49,554 nucleotides of DNA from a virus (IMGVR_UViG_3300027573_000043:1-49554); one strand, 5' to 3'; positions 2,877 through 38,305 are shown, numbered from the stretch's first letter. Program-made: numbers and translations. Notes: generated by a model from the letters alone, not told the origin.

Positions 2877-5078
2877 ATGTCGTCGATGATGCCTCCGGCC
2901 GGCGGCGAGCCGCCGATCGATCCGCCGCCCTCGCCGGAACTGCCCGGCATGGCGCGCGATCCGAACCAGAAGATCGTCGATCGCGAGGCCCCGACGCCCG
3001 ACGCGGCGCGGTCCGCCCTGGTCGACGCCTGGGTGTCGCGCATCAAGCGGGCGAAGGGTCACTGGGCGTCGCCGTTCAAGCGCATGCGCGAGGACCAGGA
3101 CTTCTGCCGCGGCAAGCAGTGGACGAAGGATCTCGAGGACAAGCGCTACGTCGCGAATCTGACGCTCAGGCTGGTGCAGCAGCGCGTCGCGTTTCTCTAC
3201 GCGAAGAACCCGAAGGTCGTCGCGAAGCGCCGGCAGAAGATCCTGAATACGACGTGGGACGGCAGCCAGGCGACGCTGCAGCAGGCGACGCAGGCGGCGA
3301 CGATGGCGATGCAGGATCCGTCGGTCCTGATGCAGCCGGAGATGCAGCCGGCGGTGCAGGAAGTCACGGCGACGATCCAGGACGCGACCAACGTGCGCGA
3401 GCAGTCGCAGAGTCTCGACAACATCGCCCGCACGCTTGAGCTACTTTACGAGTACCAGGTTGACCAGATGACGCCGCCCTTCAAGGCGTCGATGAAGATG
3501 GCCGTCAGGCGTGCAGTGACGACCGGCGTCGCCTATGTGAAGCTCGGCTTCCAGCGCGTCATGGGCCGGTCGCCGGAGAACGAGCGGCGTCTGTCCGACG
3601 CCATGACGCAGCTTTCTCGCGCCGAACAATTGTCCGCCGATCTCGCGGACAAGGAGCGCACCGACAGCGACAAGGAGGCCGAGGAGCTGCGCCTGCTCAT
3701 CGCTGAGTTGCAGAACACGCAGGATCTGATCGTGCATGAGGGTCTCACTGTCGATTACCCCCTCAGCAACGCGATCATACCAGACGAGAAGACGGTTTTC
3801 TTGCCTCAATTTATCGGCGCCGACTGGGTCGCAGAAGAATACTTGCTCACTCCAGGGGAGATCCAGCGCGTCTACGGCGTCGACGTCTCGACCAGTTACA
3901 CGGCGTATTCGCGCAGCGACGGCGGGCTCGATATCCAGGCTTACGTCGAGGCGAAACTCAAGGGCGAGCGCTACGGCGGCGCCGACGGGGCCAAGAACTG
4001 CGTTCTGGTCTGGGACGTCTACAGCCGCGTCGACGGCCTGGTCTACACGATCGCCGACGGGTGGCCCGACTTCCTGCGCGAACCGGCCGCGCCGGAAATC
4101 TCAATGGAAAGGTTCTGGCCGTGGTTCGTCGTGATGTTCAACACGACCGATTCCGACGAGGACATCTACCCGCCGAGCGACGTGAGGTTGGTGAGGGATC
4201 AGCAGCTCGAATATAACCGCGCCCGCCAGGGGCTGCGCGAGCATCGCGTCGCCGCCAGGCCCAAGACGATCGTCTCGGCCGGCAGCCTCAACGACGACGA
4301 CATGGACAAGCTGGAGAACCATCCGCCGAACGCAATTCTGGAGATTCAAGGATTGCAGCCGGGCCAGGATGTGAAGCAATTGCTTCAACCCTGGATCGGC
4401 CCAGGGATTGACCCGAACCTATATGAAACCGGGCCGGTCTGGGAGGACATCCAGCGCGTCACCGGCATCGCCGAAGCGAACATGGGAGGCACGTCGGACA
4501 CGACGGCGACGCAGTCGCAGATTTCCGAATCGTCGCGCATGACAAGCATGGGTTCGAACATCGACGACTTGACCGAAGTGATGACCCAGCTTGCGCGCGC
4601 CGCCGGCCAGATCCTGCTGATGAACGTCGAGGAGGCGACCGTGAAGCGCATCGTCGGCGAGGGCGCATCGTGGCCGCAGCTCACTCGGCAAGAGGTCGCC
4701 GACGAGGTTTGGCTGGAGATCGAGGCCGGCTCGATGGGGAGACCCGACGCCGCGGCGAGCGTCGCGCGGGCGCAGCAGATCTTCCCGCTGCTGATGCAGA
4801 TCCCCGGCATCGATCCGGAATTTTTGGCCAAAGAGCTGCTCAAGAGGTTGGACGACGATCTCGACCTGACGCAGGCTTTCCTGCCGGCGGCGCCGTCGAT
4901 CACCATGATGAACGCGGCGAAGCCGACGGCGCCGGGCGCCGGAGCTCCGGCCGGGGCGGGGCAGGGAGCTCAAGGGTCGCAGAACGCGCCGCAGGAGCCG
5001 GGCCAGCCCGGTTCAGGACCGCGGTCCGACGTCGACGTCGCCGCAGGCGCCAGGGGCGCCCCGCCGATGATGCAGTAG
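2877..5078 (+). CDS. Portal protein
   Basis: The 733-residue protein has the size and position of podovirus portals, which form the dodecameric ring at the capsid vertex. It begins with a proline-rich leader. A conserved core follows: KRMREDQDFCRGKQW, the wing, a charged coiled-coil around residues 235-290 and a clip/stem region ending in helices typical of the barrel. The last 60 residues are low-complexity G/A/P/Q. I chose ATG 2877, one base after the terminase stop, over an upstream in-frame ATG inside terL. The scaffold and capsid genes follow, completing the head block. Confidence 0.88.
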   Translation: MSSMMPPAGGEPPIDPPPSPELPGMARDPNQKIVDREAPTPDAARSALVDAWVSRIKRAKGHWASPFKRMREDQDFCRGKQWTKDLEDKRYVANLTLRLVQQRVAFLYAKNPKVVAKRRQKILNTTWDGSQATLQQATQAATMAMQDPSVLMQPEMQPAVQEVTATIQDATNVREQSQSLDNIARTLELLYEYQVDQMTPPFKASMKMAVRRAVTTGVAYVKLGFQRVMGRSPENERRLSDAMTQLSRAEQLSADLADKERTDSDKEAEELRLLIAELQNTQDLIVHEGLTVDYPLSNAIIPDEKTVFLPQFIGADWVAEEYLLTPGEIQRVYGVDVSTSYTAYSRSDGGLDIQAYVEAKLKGERYGGADGAKNCVLVWDVYSRVDGLVYTIADGWPDFLREPAAPEISMERFWPWFVVMFNTTDSDEDIYPPSDVRLVRDQQLEYNRARQGLREHRVAARPKTIVSAGSLNDDDMDKLENHPPNAILEIQGLQPGQDVKQLLQPWIGPGIDPNLYETGPVWEDIQRVTGIAEANMGGTSDTTATQSQISESSRMTSMGSNIDDLTEVMTQLARAAGQILLMNVEEATVKRIVGEGASWPQLTRQEVADEVWLEIEAGSMGRPDAAASVARAQQIFPLLMQIPGIDPEFLAKELLKRLDDDLDLTQAFLPAAPSITMMNAAKPTAPGAGAPAGAGQGAQGSQNAPQEPGQPGSGPRSDVDVAAGARGAPPMMQ

Positions 5079-29212: not shown

Positions 29213-29417
29213 GTTTCCAAAACCGTGGCGTCTGGAGTGGAGTGGCGGTTATCTTCGTGTTTTTGACGCTAATAACCGCCACCTGCTCGTCATCGTCAAC
29301 GGACATCCTGTGCTGGACTACGGTGTCCAACTGGATGTCAGCGAGATGCGCCAGCAGTTAAGTTCACTTATGGGAGCTGAGCTGACACGACTCAGCAAGA
29401 GGCTGGATCAAATATGA
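29205..29417 (+). CDS. Small unknown protein, 70 aa
   Basis: TTG start at 29205, overlapping the ParB-like gene by 8 bases, with gggag about 10 bases upstream. The N-terminus is beta-rich with aromatics (PWRLEWSGGYLRVFDANNRHLLVIVNG) and the C-terminus helical. Base composition is a little richer in A/T than its neighbours. It ends with an ATGA overlap into the methyltransferase gene. Confidence 0.62.
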   Translation: MPRFPKPWRLEWSGGYLRVFDANNRHLLVIVNGHPVLDYGVQLDVSEMRQQLSSLMGAELTRLSKRLDQI

Positions 29418-30445
29418 AACTCGTTAAATACGATGCTGCCTGTCGCGCCATCGCCGAAGCCAAGCGGGTCGATGACGTCAAGGCGTTCAAGGACAAGGCG
29501 ACAGCTCTCAAAGCCTACGCTCGTCAGATCAAGAACCCGCAGCTTGAAGCCGATTCATGGGCGATTAGAAAGCGGGCGGAGGACAGGCTAGGCGAGTTGA
29601 GCCTGGCGCTGGAGAAGGCGCCTGTCGTCAAAGGGGCGGGCAATCGCCGACTTCCCGTTAATGGGAAGTCGGGAAAGGCGCAGACGCTCAAGGCTGCAGG
29701 CATATCAACGTCGGCGGCCAATCGTTACGAGACCTTCCACAGGCTCCCGCAAGCGGAGAAGGAGAAGCGCATCGCGCGCGGGCGCGCCGCCATAGAGGCC
29801 GGCAAGTCCATCGCCGATACGATCATCCGACAGGATGATAAAAAGGAACGACGCGCTGAGCGCGAACAGGCGCTCGGATCGAAAATCATGGCGCTGCCGG
29901 ATAAGCGTTATGGCGTGATCTACGCCGATCCGGAATGGTTGGATGAAGTATGGTCAGAGGAGACTGGTCAAGATCGCGCGCCCGCGAACCATTATCCAGT
30001 GCAGTCGGAAGAAATCATCGCCGCGCGTGACGTGCCATCGATCAGCGCGAAAGACTGCGTGCTGTTCCTATGGACGACCAATCAGCATTTGCGCATCGCG
30101 CTCAATGTCATGGAAGCATGGGGGTTCGAATACAAATCAAATTACTGCTGGGGTAAAGATCGGATCAGCACCGGACGCTGGAATCGTTCGAAACACGAAC
30201 TCTTGCTGATCGGCGTCCGCGGCAATGTGCCTTGCCCGGCGCAAGGCGAACAGCGCGAATCGTTGATCATGGCGCCAAAGAGCGGACACTCGGCGAAGCC
30301 GGAATGCTTCCTCGAAATGATCGAGTCCTACTATCCGAACCTGCCGAAGATCGAACTCAACCGCCGCGGGCCGCCGCGGCCGGGATGGGACGCCTGGGGC
30401 AACGAAGTCGAGCCCGATGCAAAGGCGTCCGGAGGCGCGCGATGA
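29414..30445 (+). CDS. MT-A70-type DNA adenine methyltransferase
   Basis: The 343-residue protein has a helical N-terminal region (1-150; YDAACRAIAEAKRVDDVKAFKDKA ...) commonly fused to phage MT-A70 enzymes, then the catalytic domain from about 155. The usual DPPW tetrad reads ADPEW here (VIYADPEW), followed by NHYPVQ, LFLWTTNQH and a C-terminal SGHSAKPECFLEMIE. N6-adenine methylation of phage DNA against host restriction is the likely role. The gene contains a perfect 10-bp hairpin at 29647-29672. Confidence 0.83.
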   Translation: MKLVKYDAACRAIAEAKRVDDVKAFKDKATALKAYARQIKNPQLEADSWAIRKRAEDRLGELSLALEKAPVVKGAGNRRLPVNGKSGKAQTLKAAGISTSAANRYETFHRLPQAEKEKRIARGRAAIEAGKSIADTIIRQDDKKERRAEREQALGSKIMALPDKRYGVIYADPEWLDEVWSEETGQDRAPANHYPVQSEEIIAARDVPSISAKDCVLFLWTTNQHLRIALNVMEAWGFEYKSNYCWGKDRISTGRWNRSKHELLLIGVRGNVPCPAQGEQRESLIMAPKSGHSAKPECFLEMIESYYPNLPKIELNRRGPPRPGWDAWGNEVEPDAKASGGAR

Positions 30446-31223: not shown

Positions 31224-31287
31224 AAGGCCCGCCGCGTCTACCTTGCGACGCCGCGCGCCGACATTTCGGCAATTTCGCGAGATTCGA

Positions 31288-34098
31288 ATGACCCGCGTTG
31301 TGTCGTTAGATTTTGAGACGTGCAGCGCAATCAAGATTCAGCGCGGCGCTCCCCGATACGCATCCGATCCGACAACGCGCGTCCTCATCGCCGCCTGGGC
31401 GATCGACAACAAACCGCCCAAAGTCTGGATCATCGGCGACGATGAACCCGCGGAACTGCTCGACTTGGCGCGCGATCCGAACACGGTCTTTCGCGCGTTC
31501 AACGCGGCTTTTGAGCGCAACGTCTGGCATCACGCCTGGGCAAGGCAATGGCCGAGCGCGCCGGCAATCCCGATTGAACGCTGGACCTGCACCATGACCC
31601 GGGCGCTCGTTTGGGGCTTGCCTCGATCCTTGGAGCATGCCGGCGCGGCGATCGGCGCGCTGCAGCAGAAAGACGTCGCCGGCGCGAAGCTCATGCTCCG
31701 CATGTCGAAACCGCAGCGCGACGGGATTTGGCATCATGAAGTCGTTCCTGAGGATTTGACCGAGCTGGCGTCCTATTGCATTCGAGACGTGGAAGCAGAG
31801 CGCGCTATCGCACGCAAATTGCCGCCGACGCCGCCCGAAACAGAAGCCGGCTATCATCTCAATCAACGCATGAACACACGCGGTCTCCTGATTGACCAGG
31901 AACTTGTCCGGCGCCTGCTAGCGCTCGCCGCCGAGAAACGACAGGCGCTGCACGAACGGTTAAGCGAAATCACCTTGGGGACTGTCACGTCGCCGGACCA
32001 GCGCGAGAAGCTGCTGGAGTGGCTGCATATCATGGGCGTCGAGATTTCCGACCTGCGCCGCCAGACCGTGGCTGAGACGCTTAGAAACGGTTCCCTGAAC
32101 GGTTGTGCGCGGGAAGCGTTGCAGATTCGCGCTGACGGCTCACGCAGTTCAGTCGCAAAACTTCAAGCAATGCTCGGCGCCGTTATGGCTGATGGGCGAA
32201 TCAGAGATCCCATTTTATTCCACGGAAGTCATACTGGACGCGCCAGCGGCGCCGGGGGAGGAGGAACGCAATTTCAGAATTTCGTCCGGTCGGCGCTGCC
32301 GAAGGGCGTCAAGGTCGACGACGTGATCGGCGCCGCCCTCGACGAAGATTCGGATGTCGAGGATCTCGAGGACGAGGCCGAGGTTGACGGCCTGGCGGCG
32401 ATCGCCTCGATGCTGCGCGGCTGCGTCGTGGCCGGCGAGGGGAACGAGCTCGTCGCGTGCGACTTCGCCGGGATCGAGGCGAGGGTATTGGCGTGGATCA
32501 GCGGCAACCGGCCGATGATCGACGTGTTTCGCAGCGGCGAGGACATCTACCTGACGGCCGCCGCGCAGGCCGGAGCTCCAGGCGAGCGGATGCTTGGAAA
32601 AGTCGTGATTCTCGCGCTGGGATACGGACAGGGGCCGGTGCGGTTCGTCATTACGGCGCGCGGATACGGGGTCGAGATCAGCGAGGAGCGGGCGCAGGAG
32701 ATTGTCTGGGGCTGGCGCGAGGCGAACCCGGCCGTGACGCAATTGTGGAAGCAGCTCGACGACGCGCTGCGGCTGCTGGCGACGACGAAGGGCGACCAGG
32801 TAATCAGGATCAACCGTTACGTGTCGCTGCGCCGGTGGGGCTCGCGCGTGCTGATGCGGCTGCCGGGCGGGCGCGAGATGGTCTACCGTAATTTGCGCCT
32901 GGAGCCGGATGCGGAATCGCGCACGGGATCGTCGCTGTTCTACGATGGCGCGAAAACGATCGGCGGGAAGCTCGTCCCGTCGCGGATCTATGGCGCGGCG
33001 GCTTGTCTCGCCGGCGACACGTTCGTTCTCACTCATCGCGGATGGAAACAGATCGTCGATGTCGCACATGACGATCGCGTCTGGGACGGCGAAGCATGGG
33101 TCGCACATGACGGTCTGATCGATCAGGGCGTGCAGAGTGTGATCGAAGTCGACGGCGTCTGGATGACGCCCGATCATCAGGTTCTCACAGCGGAGGGGTG
33201 GCGTAATGGGTCGCAGGCGATTGGATCTGACTGGGCGCGTGTTCGGCTTCCTGACAGTAATCAGACCAATGGGATCAGACGGCCAGCATTCCCTGTGGGA
33301 GACGCGATGCGCATGCGGGCGCATCAAGGTTCATCTGGGCAAGCAGCTAACCAAGGGAACGAAAGCGTGCGCGTCATGCGCCAGCAAGAAGCCCCGAACG
33401 CACGGCATGTCGCGGCATCCGGCGTATGCAGTTTGGCGCTCGATGATCGATCGCTGCAGACTGCCGACACATCAGGCATGGAAGAATTACGGCGCCCGTG
33501 GAATTATGGTTTGCCTGGAGTGGCAGGCGTCGTTCGAACAGTTCTGGACGGATATGGGGCCGACCTATCAGCGAGGGTTGACGATCGAGCGCAAAGACAA
33601 CGACGCGGGTTACAGTTTGCAGAACTGCCACTGGGCCACCTACAGGGAACAGAATCGCAATCGACGAGACAACCGATACATCGACACACCATGGGGAAGA
33701 ATGACGGTGGCGGAAGCGTCGCGAAAAACAGGAATCGGCAAAACGACGCTGACATATCGACTGGATCACGGCGCGAGCGCGTCTACGATCTTCTCAATAC
33801 CGGACGTAACCACCAATTTGTCATCGCGGGGTTAAGCGGGCCGATCGTCTCGCACAACTGTGAGAACCTGGTGCAGGCCGCGGCGTACGACCTGCTCGAC
33901 CACGCGATGCGCCGGCTGGACGCCTGCGGCGTTCCGATGATCTTCTCGGTTCACGACGAGATCGTCGCCGAGGTTCCGGCCGATCGGGCGGAACGGACGC
34001 TGCGGCTGATGAAGGCGGCGATGAGCCAGCCTCCGGCGTGGGCGGAAGGGCTGCCGCTCAAGGCGGAAGGGTGGCGCGGAAAAAGGTTTCGCAAATGA
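31288..34098 (+). CDS. Family A DNA polymerase with 3'-5' exonuclease, interrupted by an intein
   Basis: The 936-residue precursor gives a 651-residue polymerase after splicing. The exonuclease domain shows D8/E10 (VSLDFETCS) and the YCIRD motif (about 170). The polymerase domain has motif A D392 (VACDFAGIEARVLAWISG), motif B K438 (LGKVVILALGYGQG) and motif C HDE 889-891 (SVHDEIVAE). The intein occupies residues 573-857, between IYGAAA and CENLVQAAAYDLL, a conserved palm segment shortly before motif C. This is the replicative polymerase of the phage. ATG 31288 is chosen because the exonuclease strand starts there. Confidence 0.92.
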   Translation: MTRVVSLDFETCSAIKIQRGAPRYASDPTTRVLIAAWAIDNKPPKVWIIGDDEPAELLDLARDPNTVFRAFNAAFERNVWHHAWARQWPSAPAIPIERWTCTMTRALVWGLPRSLEHAGAAIGALQQKDVAGAKLMLRMSKPQRDGIWHHEVVPEDLTELASYCIRDVEAERAIARKLPPTPPETEAGYHLNQRMNTRGLLIDQELVRRLLALAAEKRQALHERLSEITLGTVTSPDQREKLLEWLHIMGVEISDLRRQTVAETLRNGSLNGCAREALQIRADGSRSSVAKLQAMLGAVMADGRIRDPILFHGSHTGRASGAGGGGTQFQNFVRSALPKGVKVDDVIGAALDEDSDVEDLEDEAEVDGLAAIASMLRGCVVAGEGNELVACDFAGIEARVLAWISGNRPMIDVFRSGEDIYLTAAAQAGAPGERMLGKVVILALGYGQGPVRFVITARGYGVEISEERAQEIVWGWREANPAVTQLWKQLDDALRLLATTKGDQVIRINRYVSLRRWGSRVLMRLPGGREMVYRNLRLEPDAESRTGSSLFYDGAKTIGGKLVPSRIYGAAACLAGDTFVLTHRGWKQIVDVAHDDRVWDGEAWVAHDGLIDQGVQSVIEVDGVWMTPDHQVLTAEGWRNGSQAIGSDWARVRLPDSNQTNGIRRPAFPVGDAMRMRAHQGSSGQAANQGNESVRVMRQQEAPNARHVAASGVCSLALDDRSLQTADTSGMEELRRPWNYGLPGVAGVVRTVLDGYGADLSARVDDRAQRQRRGLQFAELPLGHLQGTESQSTRQPIHRHTMGKNDGGGSVAKNRNRQNDADISTGSRRERVYDLLNTGRNHQFVIAGLSGPIVSHNCENLVQAAAYDLLDHAMRRLDACGVPMIFSVHDEIVAEVPADRAERTLRLMKAAMSQPPAWAEGLPLKAEGWRGKRFRK
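33004..33858 (+). mobile_element. Intein in the DNA polymerase gene (285 residues)
   Basis: The first residue is Cys in block A (CLAGDTFVLTHRGWKQ). Block B is VWMTPDHQVLT (T55, H58). Block F is VYDLLNTGRNHQFVIAG, and block G PIVSHN is followed by Cys as the +1 residue. All residues for class 1 splicing are present. The Hint halves are about 68 and 26 residues. The roughly 190 residues between them in this frame show no endonuclease motif, because that DNA encodes an HNH protein in another frame (33206-33835). The polymerase frame is open throughout. Confidence 0.9.
33206..33835 (+). CDS. HNH homing endonuclease nested out of frame inside the intein
   Basis: The 209-residue protein is encoded one frame away from the polymerase. 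It has a start typical of phage HNH proteins (LTGRVFGFLTVI), a zinc-binding set CAC...CASC (residues about 35-58) and THGMSRHPAYAVWRSMIDRC. The nuclease core is YGARGIMVCLEW, TIERKDNDAGYSLQNCHWATYREQNRNRR. A C-terminal DNA-binding helix unit follows (TPWGRMTVAEASRKTGIGKTTLTYRL). The ribosome-binding site ggagggg (33192-33198) is 7 bases before the ATG, so it is probably translated on its own. It most likely spreads the intein by cutting intein-less alleles. Confidence 0.88.
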   Translation: MGRRRLDLTGRVFGFLTVIRPMGSDGQHSLWETRCACGRIKVHLGKQLTKGTKACASCASKKPRTHGMSRHPAYAVWRSMIDRCRLPTHQAWKNYGARGIMVCLEWQASFEQFWTDMGPTYQRGLTIERKDNDAGYSLQNCHWATYREQNRNRRDNRYIDTPWGRMTVAEASRKTGIGKTTLTYRLDHGASASTIFSIPDVTTNLSSRG

Positions 34099-35255: not shown

Positions 35256-36698
35256 ATGACCAACGACTGGCTGATGCGCGAACACATCCGGATCGCGATC
35301 GCCGACCACGCTGCGATGCAAAAGAAAAGACCCACTATTGCTAGTGGGTCTTTGGGCGGCGCCAGACCATTACTGGTTGCTGATCGCTTTCCTGCTCCGG
35401 GGACGATCAGGGAATCGGCGCCGAAAGTCAAGCAATCCACGCTGGCCGTCGCGTTCGGCGCCATTAGTAGCCCGGACATTCTGTCAAAGCAGTTCGTCAG
35501 GGTCGACGACACGATCGTCAAGGAATCGGGAACGCAGCTCTGGCGGGGCGAAGCCTGGGTGCAGCGGGTTGAGGGGGCGACGATCGTCGAGGCGCTCGAA
35601 TCGGTCGGGCGGTTCATGGAATCACTCGGGCCGGGCGAAGCCATCACGCCGGGACTGCCGCAGGCGTCAGTCGAAGCAGGCGGCGGACGGGTGCGGATCG
35701 CGTCGAAACGCTGGGCGGCGCGGATCGAGGCCACGACGCGAACCCGCGGGGCGTATGGATGGCCGAACGCCCCGGCGCTGGCGCTGGCGCCGCTCGACAA
35801 GGACACAGAGGGCGGGGAGGAACTGCCGGAGGTTCTGGCAGGCATCCATCCGGCGCTGGGCAAGGCGGCGCTGCTGCTAAGGCCGTCAGCCGCGGCGGGC
35901 GTAGCCCTGGAAGGACAGGATGCAGCCGGCGGGCGCATGCACGCCTACCTGCCGGTTCGACGCGCTGCATCAATCCCGATGCTGATCAAACTGATGTCGG
36001 CGCATGCGCTCATCCTGGGGCTCGGCGGATCCGGTCTGCGGCTCAACAAGCCGGGTGATCTGTGCCGCAAATCGTGCATCGACCCGGCGCTCGGGGACCC
36101 TGAGCATCTTTGCTACGAGGGCGCCGCCGTGTTGGGGCCGGGCCTGTGGCAGGCGACGCCGCGGGCGGCGCAGGTCCGGAACGGGCTGATTGTCGACGCC
36201 GGGGCGATGGTCACGGCGCTCGACGAGAGCGGGACAAACCACCGGCTGCGCGTCTGGGAAGCGGCCGAACGGGCGCGGTGGCGCGACGATCCCGAGCTGG
36301 CGCGGATGCGGCGCGAGCATCGGCAGGCGTATGTCGATGAGCCGGGGATAACTGCGGCGAAACGCCAGAGGCGGGCGCGGCGCCTGGCGGCCGGCGATTT
36401 CTCGGGCGGCGACGTGCGGGACGATTATGCGAACTACGGGTTCGCCCTGGCGTCGGATTCAATGACGCTGGTCGATGGCCGCGAGATCCTGCTGGCCGAG
36501 GTGCTGGACGATCCTCTGGCATTTGACGGCTGCGTCGGATCGGACCCGCTCGAGGACGTCGGGTACGGGCGGACAACAGCGCGGGTATGCGTCGATCGCG
36601 TCGGGCGGCCCTTCATTTTCAGTTTTGCACATTCGCGATCACGCTACGCGATCATCGACGATCGTGTTCTGGGTCCGGTGAAACGGAGGGGAGAATGA
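35256..36698 (+). CDS. Archaeo-eukaryotic-type primase (PrimPol-like)
   Basis: The 480-residue protein has the acidic pair D181-x-D183 (PLDKD), H229 (GRMHAYLP) and D276 (CIDPALGDPEHLCYEGAAVLGPGLWQ). Together these match AEP primase motifs in phage primase-helicase sets. N-terminal ILSKQFVR...DDTIVKE...W also fits that family. ATG 35256 has ggaga 5 bases upstream. The frame is open back to ATG 35121, but that start has no suitable ribosome-binding site, and a terminator-like hairpin lies at codons 24-33. The true start could therefore be further downstream (TTG 35352). It is coupled to the SF3 helicase by ATGA. Confidence 0.72.
   Translation: MTNDWLMREHIRIAIADHAAMQKKRPTIASGSLGGARPLLVADRFPAPGTIRESAPKVKQSTLAVAFGAISSPDILSKQFVRVDDTIVKESGTQLWRGEAWVQRVEGATIVEALESVGRFMESLGPGEAITPGLPQASVEAGGGRVRIASKRWAARIEATTRTRGAYGWPNAPALALAPLDKDTEGGEELPEVLAGIHPALGKAALLLRPSAAAGVALEGQDAAGGRMHAYLPVRRAASIPMLIKLMSAHALILGLGGSGLRLNKPGDLCRKSCIDPALGDPEHLCYEGAAVLGPGLWQATPRAAQVRNGLIVDAGAMVTALDESGTNHRLRVWEAAERARWRDDPELARMRREHRQAYVDEPGITAAKRQRRARRLAAGDFSGGDVRDDYANYGFALASDSMTLVDGREILLAEVLDDPLAFDGCVGSDPLEDVGYGRTTARVCVDRVGRPFIFSFAHSRSRYAIIDDRVLGPVKRRGE
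35326..35353. terminator. Perfect 12-bp hairpin, terminator-like, inside the primase 5' region
   Basis: aaagacccacta (35326-35337) pairs with tagtgggtcttt (35342-35353) around a 4-base loop. On the minus strand it is followed by tttctttt, a good leftward terminator. On the plus strand only the ttt of the stem is present, so rightward termination would be weak. It may protect the leftward gene or the primase region from antisense transcription, or attenuate primase expression. Confidence 0.65.
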
Positions 36699-38305
36699 GC
36701 GTGCTGCCGACGATCGATGTCCTGCTGCGGATGACGCCGCTCGGGCCGGCGTGGATGGTCGAGGACCAGGACAGGGTCATGAAGACCGCGGCGGATACCC
36801 TGAAGATATATGGCGGCAAGAAACGATTTCTGCCGCCGAAATCAAAACCGGATTCGCTCGCGTCGCACATGGTGTGCGCGAAGACGACGCTGGCCCTGGC
36901 CGCGCATCGCCTGCTGCACGCGCCGGCGATGGGGCTGTTCCTGGCGTGGAACGGGCAGCGCTATGCGCCGGGAGACGAGGTTGCGTCGGAGATCCAGCCG
37001 CTGGTCGAGGACGTGTGCAGGATGGCGTGCGGCATGAAGAAAGCGAGGGAGAAGGACATGTATGAGTACAACGCAACGGGCGAGTCGGAGGCGTTTGTGC
37101 GGGCCGTCGTGGCGCTGCTGAAACGCGATCCGCGCATCCAGGTCAGCGCCAGCGATCTCGACGCGATCGGCGAACTGATGGGCATGGACACGGGCGCTGG
37201 CGTTACATGGGACGCGAAGCAGGGCGGGGCGGTCCCGGCGCAGCCGAAATGGCTGATCACGCGAGCGCTGCGAAAGGGGCTGACGCCCAAGGCGGGGCCA
37301 GCGCCGAAGTGGGATCGGTTTCTGGACGCGGTGCTGGCCGAGTTCAAGGAGGACGCGCCTGCGGTGCGCGCGTATCTGCAGAGACACCTGGGATACTGCT
37401 GCACCGGCGACGATCCGCACCGGAAGATACTGCTGATCTGGGGGTTGGGACGGAACGGCAAATCGACGCTGATGCGCACGGTGACGGAACTGCTCGGCAC
37501 ATATGCCGTGGGCATGCCGGCCTCGGCGTTTGCGAAGGATTCATACGGCGCACGGCCGAACCAGGCGACGCCGGACATGATGGCGCTCGAGGGATGTCGG
37601 CTCGCGGTCGGGTTCGAAGCGTCGGAGAGGCTGGATGTTGAAGCGCTAAAGGCGTGGACCGGGGGCGACGCGGTGTCGGGGAGGGCGCTCTATCATGGCG
37701 TGCGCAAGATACGGACAGGCGCGAAGCTGGTGTTCATCGCCAACAAGGAGATCCAGGTTCCCGGCGCCGACGCGGCGTTTGCGGACAGGCTGGTGATGCT
37801 GCCGATGGAGGCGCGGCTGCCGGACTATTCGGACGAGTCGAGGCCCTATTGGCAGGTGCTGGTCGAGGAGGAGGGGCCGGCGATCATGGCGTGGATCCTG
37901 GAGGGCGCGCGGCTGGTCTACGCGGAGGGGAGGCTGGACGCGCCGGGCGTGCTGAAACGAGCGACGAAGGCGTTTGTACAATCGGCCGACAAATTGCTGC
38001 AGGCGATGCAGGCGGCGCTGGTCAAGGATGTCGACGGGGAGATCAGGTCGAAGGAATTATATCATACGGTCGAGCAGGCGTGGCTGGGCTCGGGGGGCAA
38101 CCCACACGACATGCCGTCGGCCAGAAGCAGGACATTCTCGGCGCGGGTGAAAGAGACTTTCGGGGCGCGGTTGCTCCAGGACAAGGAGGGTTCGTACTGG
38201 AGAGGCGTACGAAAACGTACTTTAAACGATCCGTTAGACGACCCCACGGAGGGTCAAAAAGGGACAGTTGTGGGTCTAAAAGAGCGGCGAAAGTCGCCAG
38301 GATGA
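36695..38305 (+). CDS. SF3/D5-type replicative helicase
   Basis: The 536-residue protein has an N-terminal D5-N-like region and a superfamily 3 ATPase. Walker A is GRNGKST (about 252-258), Walker B-like CRLAVGFEASE and motif C LVFIANKEIQVPG. The sequence FADRLVMLPMEARLPD supplies the arginine-finger region. Strong ribosome-binding site ggaggggag. It would unwind phage DNA at the origin with the primase encoded just before it. The iteron cluster directly after its stop supports this. Confidence 0.9.
   Translation: MSVLPTIDVLLRMTPLGPAWMVEDQDRVMKTAADTLKIYGGKKRFLPPKSKPDSLASHMVCAKTTLALAAHRLLHAPAMGLFLAWNGQRYAPGDEVASEIQPLVEDVCRMACGMKKAREKDMYEYNATGESEAFVRAVVALLKRDPRIQVSASDLDAIGELMGMDTGAGVTWDAKQGGAVPAQPKWLITRALRKGLTPKAGPAPKWDRFLDAVLAEFKEDAPAVRAYLQRHLGYCCTGDDPHRKILLIWGLGRNGKSTLMRTVTELLGTYAVGMPASAFAKDSYGARPNQATPDMMALEGCRLAVGFEASERLDVEALKAWTGGDAVSGRALYHGVRKIRTGAKLVFIANKEIQVPGADAAFADRLVMLPMEARLPDYSDESRPYWQVLVEEEGPAIMAWILEGARLVYAEGRLDAPGVLKRATKAFVQSADKLLQAMQAALVKDVDGEIRSKELYHTVEQAWLGSGGNPHDMPSARSRTFSARVKETFGARLLQDKEGSYWRGVRKRTLNDPLDDPTEGQKGTVVGLKERRKSPG

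Follow-up and report, generated by a model that had tools for sequence, protein, structure and literature searches.

The family A DNA polymerase gene of a virus from an IMG/VR record carries an intein, and wholly inside the intein lies a second gene, for an HNH-type protein, that is read in a different frame of the same strand. By "the window" I mean the entire stretch of DNA that was analysed, 49,554 nucleotides long; positions are counted from its first letter, and the parts of the polymerase gene described below all lie on the plus strand. Computation establishes both open reading frames, the conservation of the splicing motifs, selection on both frames, the recurrence of the arrangement, and the existence of alleles with an empty insertion site. 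The element as a whole I take, with considerable confidence, to be a mobile intein that is able to splice and whose homing nuclease is out of frame and separately initiated, where splicing, initiation, cutting, and homing are inferred.

The Polymerase Gene and Its Intein

The polymerase precursor (N-extein, intein, and C-extein) occupies positions 31288 to 34098, as judged from its translation and from matches to Pfam DNA_pol_A (E = 4e-19) and to phrog_17, DNA polymerase (E = 1e-101). Its reading frame runs without interruption from 31243 to 34098, straight across the HNH gene, as the preliminary description had it. The frame is open from a TTG at 31243, but the ATG at 31288 is the likelier start. 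The record contains one copy of the intein and one of the HNH gene. Elsewhere in the window, an ORF at 29414 to 30445 resembles an MT-A70-type adenine methyltransferase (motif ADPEW) and another at 36587 to 38305, with a P-loop GLGRNGKST, resembles a D5/P4-type phage primase/helicase, both likenesses having been judged by eye only.

The intein (33004 to 33858; 285 amino acids, Cys1 to Asn285) was delimited by its conserved blocks, by comparison with polymerases that lack it, and by a structural match to an AlphaFold model. It interrupts the polymerase just ahead of the conserved ENxxQ motif, begins with the Cys at 33004, ends with the Asn at 33858, and is followed by a +1 Cys from 33859. The 79 polymerases found with an empty site are contiguous across the junction, and in 22 of them the +1 residue is Cys. 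Conservation of blocks A, B, F, and G was seen in 39 to 42 relatives. The N-terminal splicing region (33004 to 33201) includes block B, GVWMTPDHQVLT, at 33154 to 33189, with its T..H motif. Block F, VYDLLNTGRNHQFVIAG, at 33781 to 33835, is read in the intein frame from the same nucleotides that encode, in the other frame, the last 18 codons and the stop of the HNH gene. Block G (GPIVSHN) follows, and together with the +1 Cys, the first residue of the C-extein, it occupies 33838 to 33861. All of the residues relevant to splicing, C1, T55 and H58 (N-terminal region), D262, and H284, N285, and C286 (block G and beyond), are invariant in the alignment of relatives (alignment A7).

AlphaFold models were built from alignments of the window's proteins with sequences from viral contigs. 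The splicing blocks are modeled with pLDDT of 93 to 98, and among PDB structures the intein model matches the mini-inteins of DnaX and RecA (E = 3e-4 to 5e-4, probability 1.0), thereby meeting the criterion for a Hint fold. Pfam provides no match to a Hint or intein domain in the window at a threshold of 0.1, nor any domain for intein or nuclease in either frame, and annotation pipelines therefore miss both of them. A group I intron bearing an HNH ORF was considered as another kind of insertion and rejected: there is no Rfam match, with E values up to 1, between 32800 and 34100, and the host frame is open throughout.

The Out-of-Frame HNH Gene

The HNH gene (33206 to 33835) is a complete ORF of 209 codons, +1 relative to the polymerase frame and contained entirely within the intein. 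The preliminary description had placed it there, out of frame, with its own ATG and ggagggg site and with about 18 final codons that double as block F; the ORF, the GGAGGGG at 33192 to 33198, and the overlap from 33781 are all present. The gene was identified by profile matches of its 209-residue product to phrog_374, HNH endonuclease (E = 2e-51), and phrog_3377 (E = 7e-48), as well as by its AlphaFold model (mean pLDDT 87.8) and its dN/dS. The protein is laid out as an N-terminal Cys knuckle, an HNH-like core, and a C-terminal helix-turn-helix. The core, LTIERKDNDAGYSLQNCHWATYREQNRNRRD, at about residues 125 to 155 (33578 to 33670), gives only a weak profile match to I-HmuI (1u3e; E = 0.035), and its residues Y136, N140, C141, W143, and N152 are invariant. 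The helix-turn-helix-like segment (residues 164 to 187; 33695 to 33766) rests on Pfam HTH matches that are weak but occur in many members of the family (best E = 1e-4) and on helices at residues 168 to 175 and 179 to 187 of the model. Pfam finds no HNH domain in the protein.

Where HNH enzymes have their first catalytic His, Arg (Arg129) stands instead in 54 of 55 intein-borne relatives and in all 38 free-standing relatives sampled, and since the free-standing proteins share it, the Arg is a trait of the family rather than a sign of decay. Judged from its sequence, then, the protein is a member of the phrog_374 group but not a canonical H-N-H enzyme. Its family makes nuclease activity likely. 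This is an inference, and catalysis remains unproven, because the first His is Arg family-wide and because a Foldseek search of the PDB with the HNH model found no match at E ≤ 0.001.

Recurrence of the Arrangement

Viral contigs were scanned with an alignment of the intein frame, yielding 416 stretches. The best 80 of these 416 loci all have a stop-free intein frame with the HNH gene in the +1 frame. The same layout occurs in the finished genomes of the phages APSE-1, SFCi1, and Caulobacter phage RW. Dereplication by shared 12-mers left 63 non-redundant +1 loci, drawn from Caulobacter, Shewanella, and APSE phages and from IMG/VR contigs. The preliminary description had proposed such a search for polymerase inteins with an overlapping HNH frame. 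The arrangement is widespread, occurring in many phages that are unrelated to one another, and is not peculiar to the window's phage. A search of genome contigs found the layout at one locus, in the Gram-positive Paenibacillus alkaliterrae (L099), where the HNH protein is 53% identical to that of the window and the insertion lies three codons further on; a second match in P. alkaliterrae has 13 stops in the alternate frame and is probably a free-standing copy. A search of plasmids gave no match.

A second scan, led by the HNH protein instead, recovered 46 copies that lie in inteins and have an intact HNH frame, along with 39 free-standing copies. An assembly error or a sequencing frameshift might have displaced an HNH domain that is really in frame with the intein, as the preliminary description allowed in naming what would refute it, but nothing was found in favor of this. 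None of the 46 intein-borne loci from the HNH-led scan has an in-frame version. That, and the same +1 layout in finished genomes, in IMG/VR contigs, and in Paenibacillus, leave such an error with practically no standing as an explanation.

Within this motif of the polymerase, the element is also found displaced by a few codons. Outside the polymerase, three loci (L004, L068, and L069) have the same intein with a hidden +1 HNH gene in what Pfam identifies as an SNF2-type helicase gene, and two others (L042 and L077) resemble these at the junction only.

Translation of the HNH Frame

The Shine-Dalgarno-like GGAGGGG lies 7 nt 5' of the HNH ATG and doubles as the E-G-W codons that end the block B region. 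Over the 63 loci, a Shine-Dalgarno match of at least 4 nt precedes the HNH start in 78% of cases, as compared to 22% for positions drawn at random from these inteins, and in most of the loci the start codon recurs near the end of block B, at an offset of about 199 to 205. The enrichment is suggestive of initiation but is not independent proof of it, since the intein's own conserved G-W codons make up part of the site. No sigma-70-like promoter for the HNH gene was found between 32700 and 34200, so the HNH gene is assumed to be translated from the polymerase mRNA.

One might suppose that there is no separate protein at all, and that programmed ribosomal frameshifting out of the N-terminal region of the intein produces a fusion of that region with the HNH protein. 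The HNH frame is indeed open for a short distance 5' of its start in all loci, and in some an A-run (TGGAAAA) immediately precedes the start. The run is absent, however, from the window and from many relatives, the HNH frame is closed by an upstream stop at varying distances, and the recurrent position of the start codons and their excess of Shine-Dalgarno-like matches are not what frameshifting would lead one to expect. I consider it improbable, and separate initiation remains the preferred account.

Coding in Two Frames

It had been estimated, with uniform bases, that the polymerase frame would stay open across the HNH gene by chance about once in several tens of thousands. The estimate is right on its own terms (4.4e-5, or about 1 in 23,000), yet it makes the window, taken singly, look more striking than it is: the chance is 2.9e-4 with the real base composition (57.6% GC) and about 0.005, with 4.0 stops expected, when the HNH protein is held constant and its own codons are reshuffled. 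A value of 0.005 is not tiny, and by itself would leave room for the view that the HNH gene is passively inherited and that GC-rich codon usage merely happened to leave the intein frame open.

The relatives are decisive where the window is not. Stops were counted in the polymerase frame and compared with the number expected when the HNH protein is fixed and synonymous codons are reshuffled. In the 63 non-redundant loci, whose GC content extends down to 46%, the polymerase frame should by this reckoning contain 409.5 stops and contains none, whereas the third frame has 774 against 728.5. The 46 intein-borne copies from the HNH-led scan, all in the same relative frame, likewise have none (293 expected), while the equivalent frame of the 39 free-standing relatives has 612 (633 expected) and so exhibits no avoidance. 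With the third frame and the free-standing genes both at expectation and the polymerase frame so far from it, an effect of codon usage is hardly credible. Stops in the intein frame of relatives whose host gene is intact would have told against the dual-coding interpretation, and there are none.

One free-standing HNH gene, L321:2001-2438, lies between structural-type genes and has its polymerase-equivalent frame open, by chance or by history (0 stops against 5.9 expected).

A codon analysis of both frames had been among the checks suggested at the outset. In the splicing region, substitutions between relatives fall mostly at the third position of polymerase codons; across the overlap they fall mostly at the first, which corresponds to the third position of HNH codons. 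Counting differences at polymerase positions 1, 2, and 3 in turn, the pair L053/L055 has 3, 0, and 23 in the splicing region and 77, 24, and 22 in the overlap, and the pair L020/L043 has 11, 7, and 33 and then 98, 33, and 20. In other words, the fast-evolving codon position changes frame at the start of the HNH gene. Values of dN/dS for the HNH frame (NG86), calculated between relatives including close pairs, are about 0.07 to 0.3. The HNH protein is under purifying selection, and the intein frame is selected to stay free of stops.

These values also bear on the idea that the nuclease frame is a dead relic and that only the intein persists. The absence of the canonical first His would fit a relic, as would a few relatives in which the HNH frame is broken or shortened (L007, L285, and possibly L216). 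But dN/dS is well below 1 even between close pairs, zinc ligands and core residues are kept, and the Arg in place of His is found in every free-standing relative sampled. A relic is accordingly unlikely, though it is the rival I would be slowest to dismiss, and a maintained nuclease gene is the better reading. In L285 and L216 the intein frame is still open, an asymmetry that would follow if the host frame alone were essential.

What the intein frame encodes across the overlap is another matter. Its residues are 26% identical between relatives, only slightly more than the 22.5% forced by the coding of the HNH protein, so the overlap behaves as a mostly unconstrained, open linker. It has no domain match, and in the AlphaFold model its pLDDT is about 43, mostly below 50. 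The small excess of identity may mean that it is not pure filler. On the evidence of stop avoidance, the switch in wobble position, the free-standing controls, and structure prediction, the original proposal that one piece of DNA serves as splicing linker and as a separate HNH gene holds up well.

Spread and Origin of the Element

Mean identity amongst the inteins (0.51) and amongst the HNH proteins (0.50) exceeds that of the exteins (0.33); the pair L029/L060, for example, has exteins with an identity of 0.24 and HNH proteins with 0.60. This is as one would expect of horizontal spread, but the comparison demonstrates no transfer event, and faster divergence of the exteins through different constraint alone is not excluded as the cause of the gap.

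In a tree of HNH proteins, the intein-borne proteins cluster together, beside free-standing relatives, with the root unsure. The tree fits the suggestion, made in the preliminary description, that an HNH-less mini-intein captured a free-standing HNH gene, subject to that uncertainty. A single origin of the intein-borne genes is not ruled out.

A Second Class of Intein in the Same Polymerase

A second class of intein is found in the motif B region of the polymerase (L180, L181, L182, L012, L008, and L183-L262, including Salmonella Jerseyviruses). It has an HNH gene of a different subfamily, in the +2 frame in all 75 loci examined. Its members include Salmonella phage fSE1C (L180), EBPR siphovirus 2, Pseudomonas phage MR14, and Vibrio phage 97.13. 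The 58 non-redundant loci have no stops in the polymerase frame (269 expected) and 1060 in the third frame (1002 expected). The intein of MR14 is matched over most of its length by 164 phage records, mostly from Salmonella, the HNH frames of which were not checked individually.

Two polymerase ORFs, of about 1230 to 1250 codons, carry both inteins (L253 with L059, and L221 with L046), and all three forward frames are thus used in one gene. A common clade for the +1 and +2 HNH proteins is not rejected (p-AU 0.73), and I therefore do not claim that two separate captures have been shown.

A Proposed Mechanism and Its Consequences

Translation from the polymerase start would read through the intein, producing a polymerase interrupted by a folded Hint domain with a disordered linker of roughly 170 residues, and the intein would then excise itself and ligate the exteins. 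A second ribosome, starting at 33206 by way of GGAGGGG on the same mRNA, would make a free-standing HNH-type nuclease of the phrog_374 group from the +1 frame. This protein is presumed to recognize an intein-less polymerase gene and to cut or nick it near the insertion point, and repair would copy the intein, along with the hidden gene, into the cut allele.

It seems somewhat probable, though well short of assured, that out-of-frame nuclease genes are a general and recurrent architecture of phage inteins, maintained by no fewer than two lineages that differ in frame and in their site within a single essential gene (some polymerases having both), with a folded nuclease and a stop-free disordered linker encoded by the same DNA. 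If so, then many annotated mini-inteins are active homing elements, expression of the nuclease is uncoupled from splicing, and the nuclease is protected from loss by its position inside an essential open frame.

The arrangement alters how inteins are to be read, since inserts recorded as mere splicing domains may hide a homing nuclease. Curated records call such inteins splicing-only (that of Salmonella phage Ent2, for one). Should the nuclease be active, many supposed mini-inteins are mobile, and models of intein gain and loss can no longer treat those without a nuclease as dead ends. The family also offers a clean natural case of dual-frame coding, pairing a well-folded enzyme with a disordered linker, for which the free-standing relatives serve as controls; for engineering it could supply nucleases that are conditional or separately expressed.

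Comparison with Known Systems

This large family of inteins with hidden nucleases is unrecognized in the sources searched, and it is itself a variant of a familiar theme, the intein with a homing nuclease. Canonical large inteins contain an in-frame LAGLIDADG or HNH domain as part of the intein polypeptide. The window's nuclease occupies the usual place of a homing endonuclease, between blocks B and F, but it is a separate protein in another frame and does not meet the in-frame criterion. In the "fractured genes" reportedly described by Dassa et al. in 2009, the intein is split and a nuclease gene stands on its own between the two halves. There too the nuclease is encoded apart from the splicing domain, but in the window neither host gene nor intein is split, and the nuclease overlaps the coding sequence of the intein.

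The inteins of Salmonella Jerseyvirus polymerases (e.g., vB_SenS-Ent2 gp37) likewise interrupt phage polymerases of family A, and that of fSE1C has a hidden HNH gene. They differ in site (motif B), in HNH subfamily, and in frame (+2). The polymerase intein of Ent2 is annotated only as "encoding splicing domains".

One of the two closest precedents is a RefSeq annotation. The preliminary description knew of no well-studied example in a phage polymerase, and none was found described: the literature that could be searched yielded nothing on out-of-frame nucleases in polymerase inteins or on dual coding in APSE-1. An example has nonetheless been annotated, since P45 and P46 of APSE-1 (NC_000935) are an intein-bearing polymerase of family A and an HNH ORF that overlaps the intein in another frame. 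The insertion point, before ENxxQ, is the same as in the window, and intein and HNH protein are homologous to the window's. P46 differs in being annotated from an internal ATG (L009:3431-3853), with the first 76 codons missing. The HNH frame of APSE-1 is open upstream to a GTG at 3203 and encodes a full N-terminal zinc knuckle.

Nor is an out-of-frame HNH gene new in itself. The other close precedent is the ShiLan domain, which, like the Pacc40 insert, lies in mycobacteriophage methylases and has been published as an out-of-frame HNH insertion (Arsenault, Gosselin and Gogarten 2025; PMC11855218). The same article cites a 2025 preprint on actinobacteriophage inteins of "non-canonical architecture", which may already report out-of-frame nucleases in other inteins. 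As in the window, the ShiLan insertion leaves the host frame open around an out-of-frame HNH gene, and homing is inferred there as well (PMC11855218). The window thus satisfies one criterion of a ShiLan-type element, an out-of-frame HNH gene in a stop-free insertion, but not the other, the absence of a splicing domain. No intein splicing motifs and no ribosome binding site were detected in the ShiLan insert, which is thought to be retained in the methylase (PMC11855218), whereas the window has a complete splicing domain and a Shine-Dalgarno-like site before its hidden gene.
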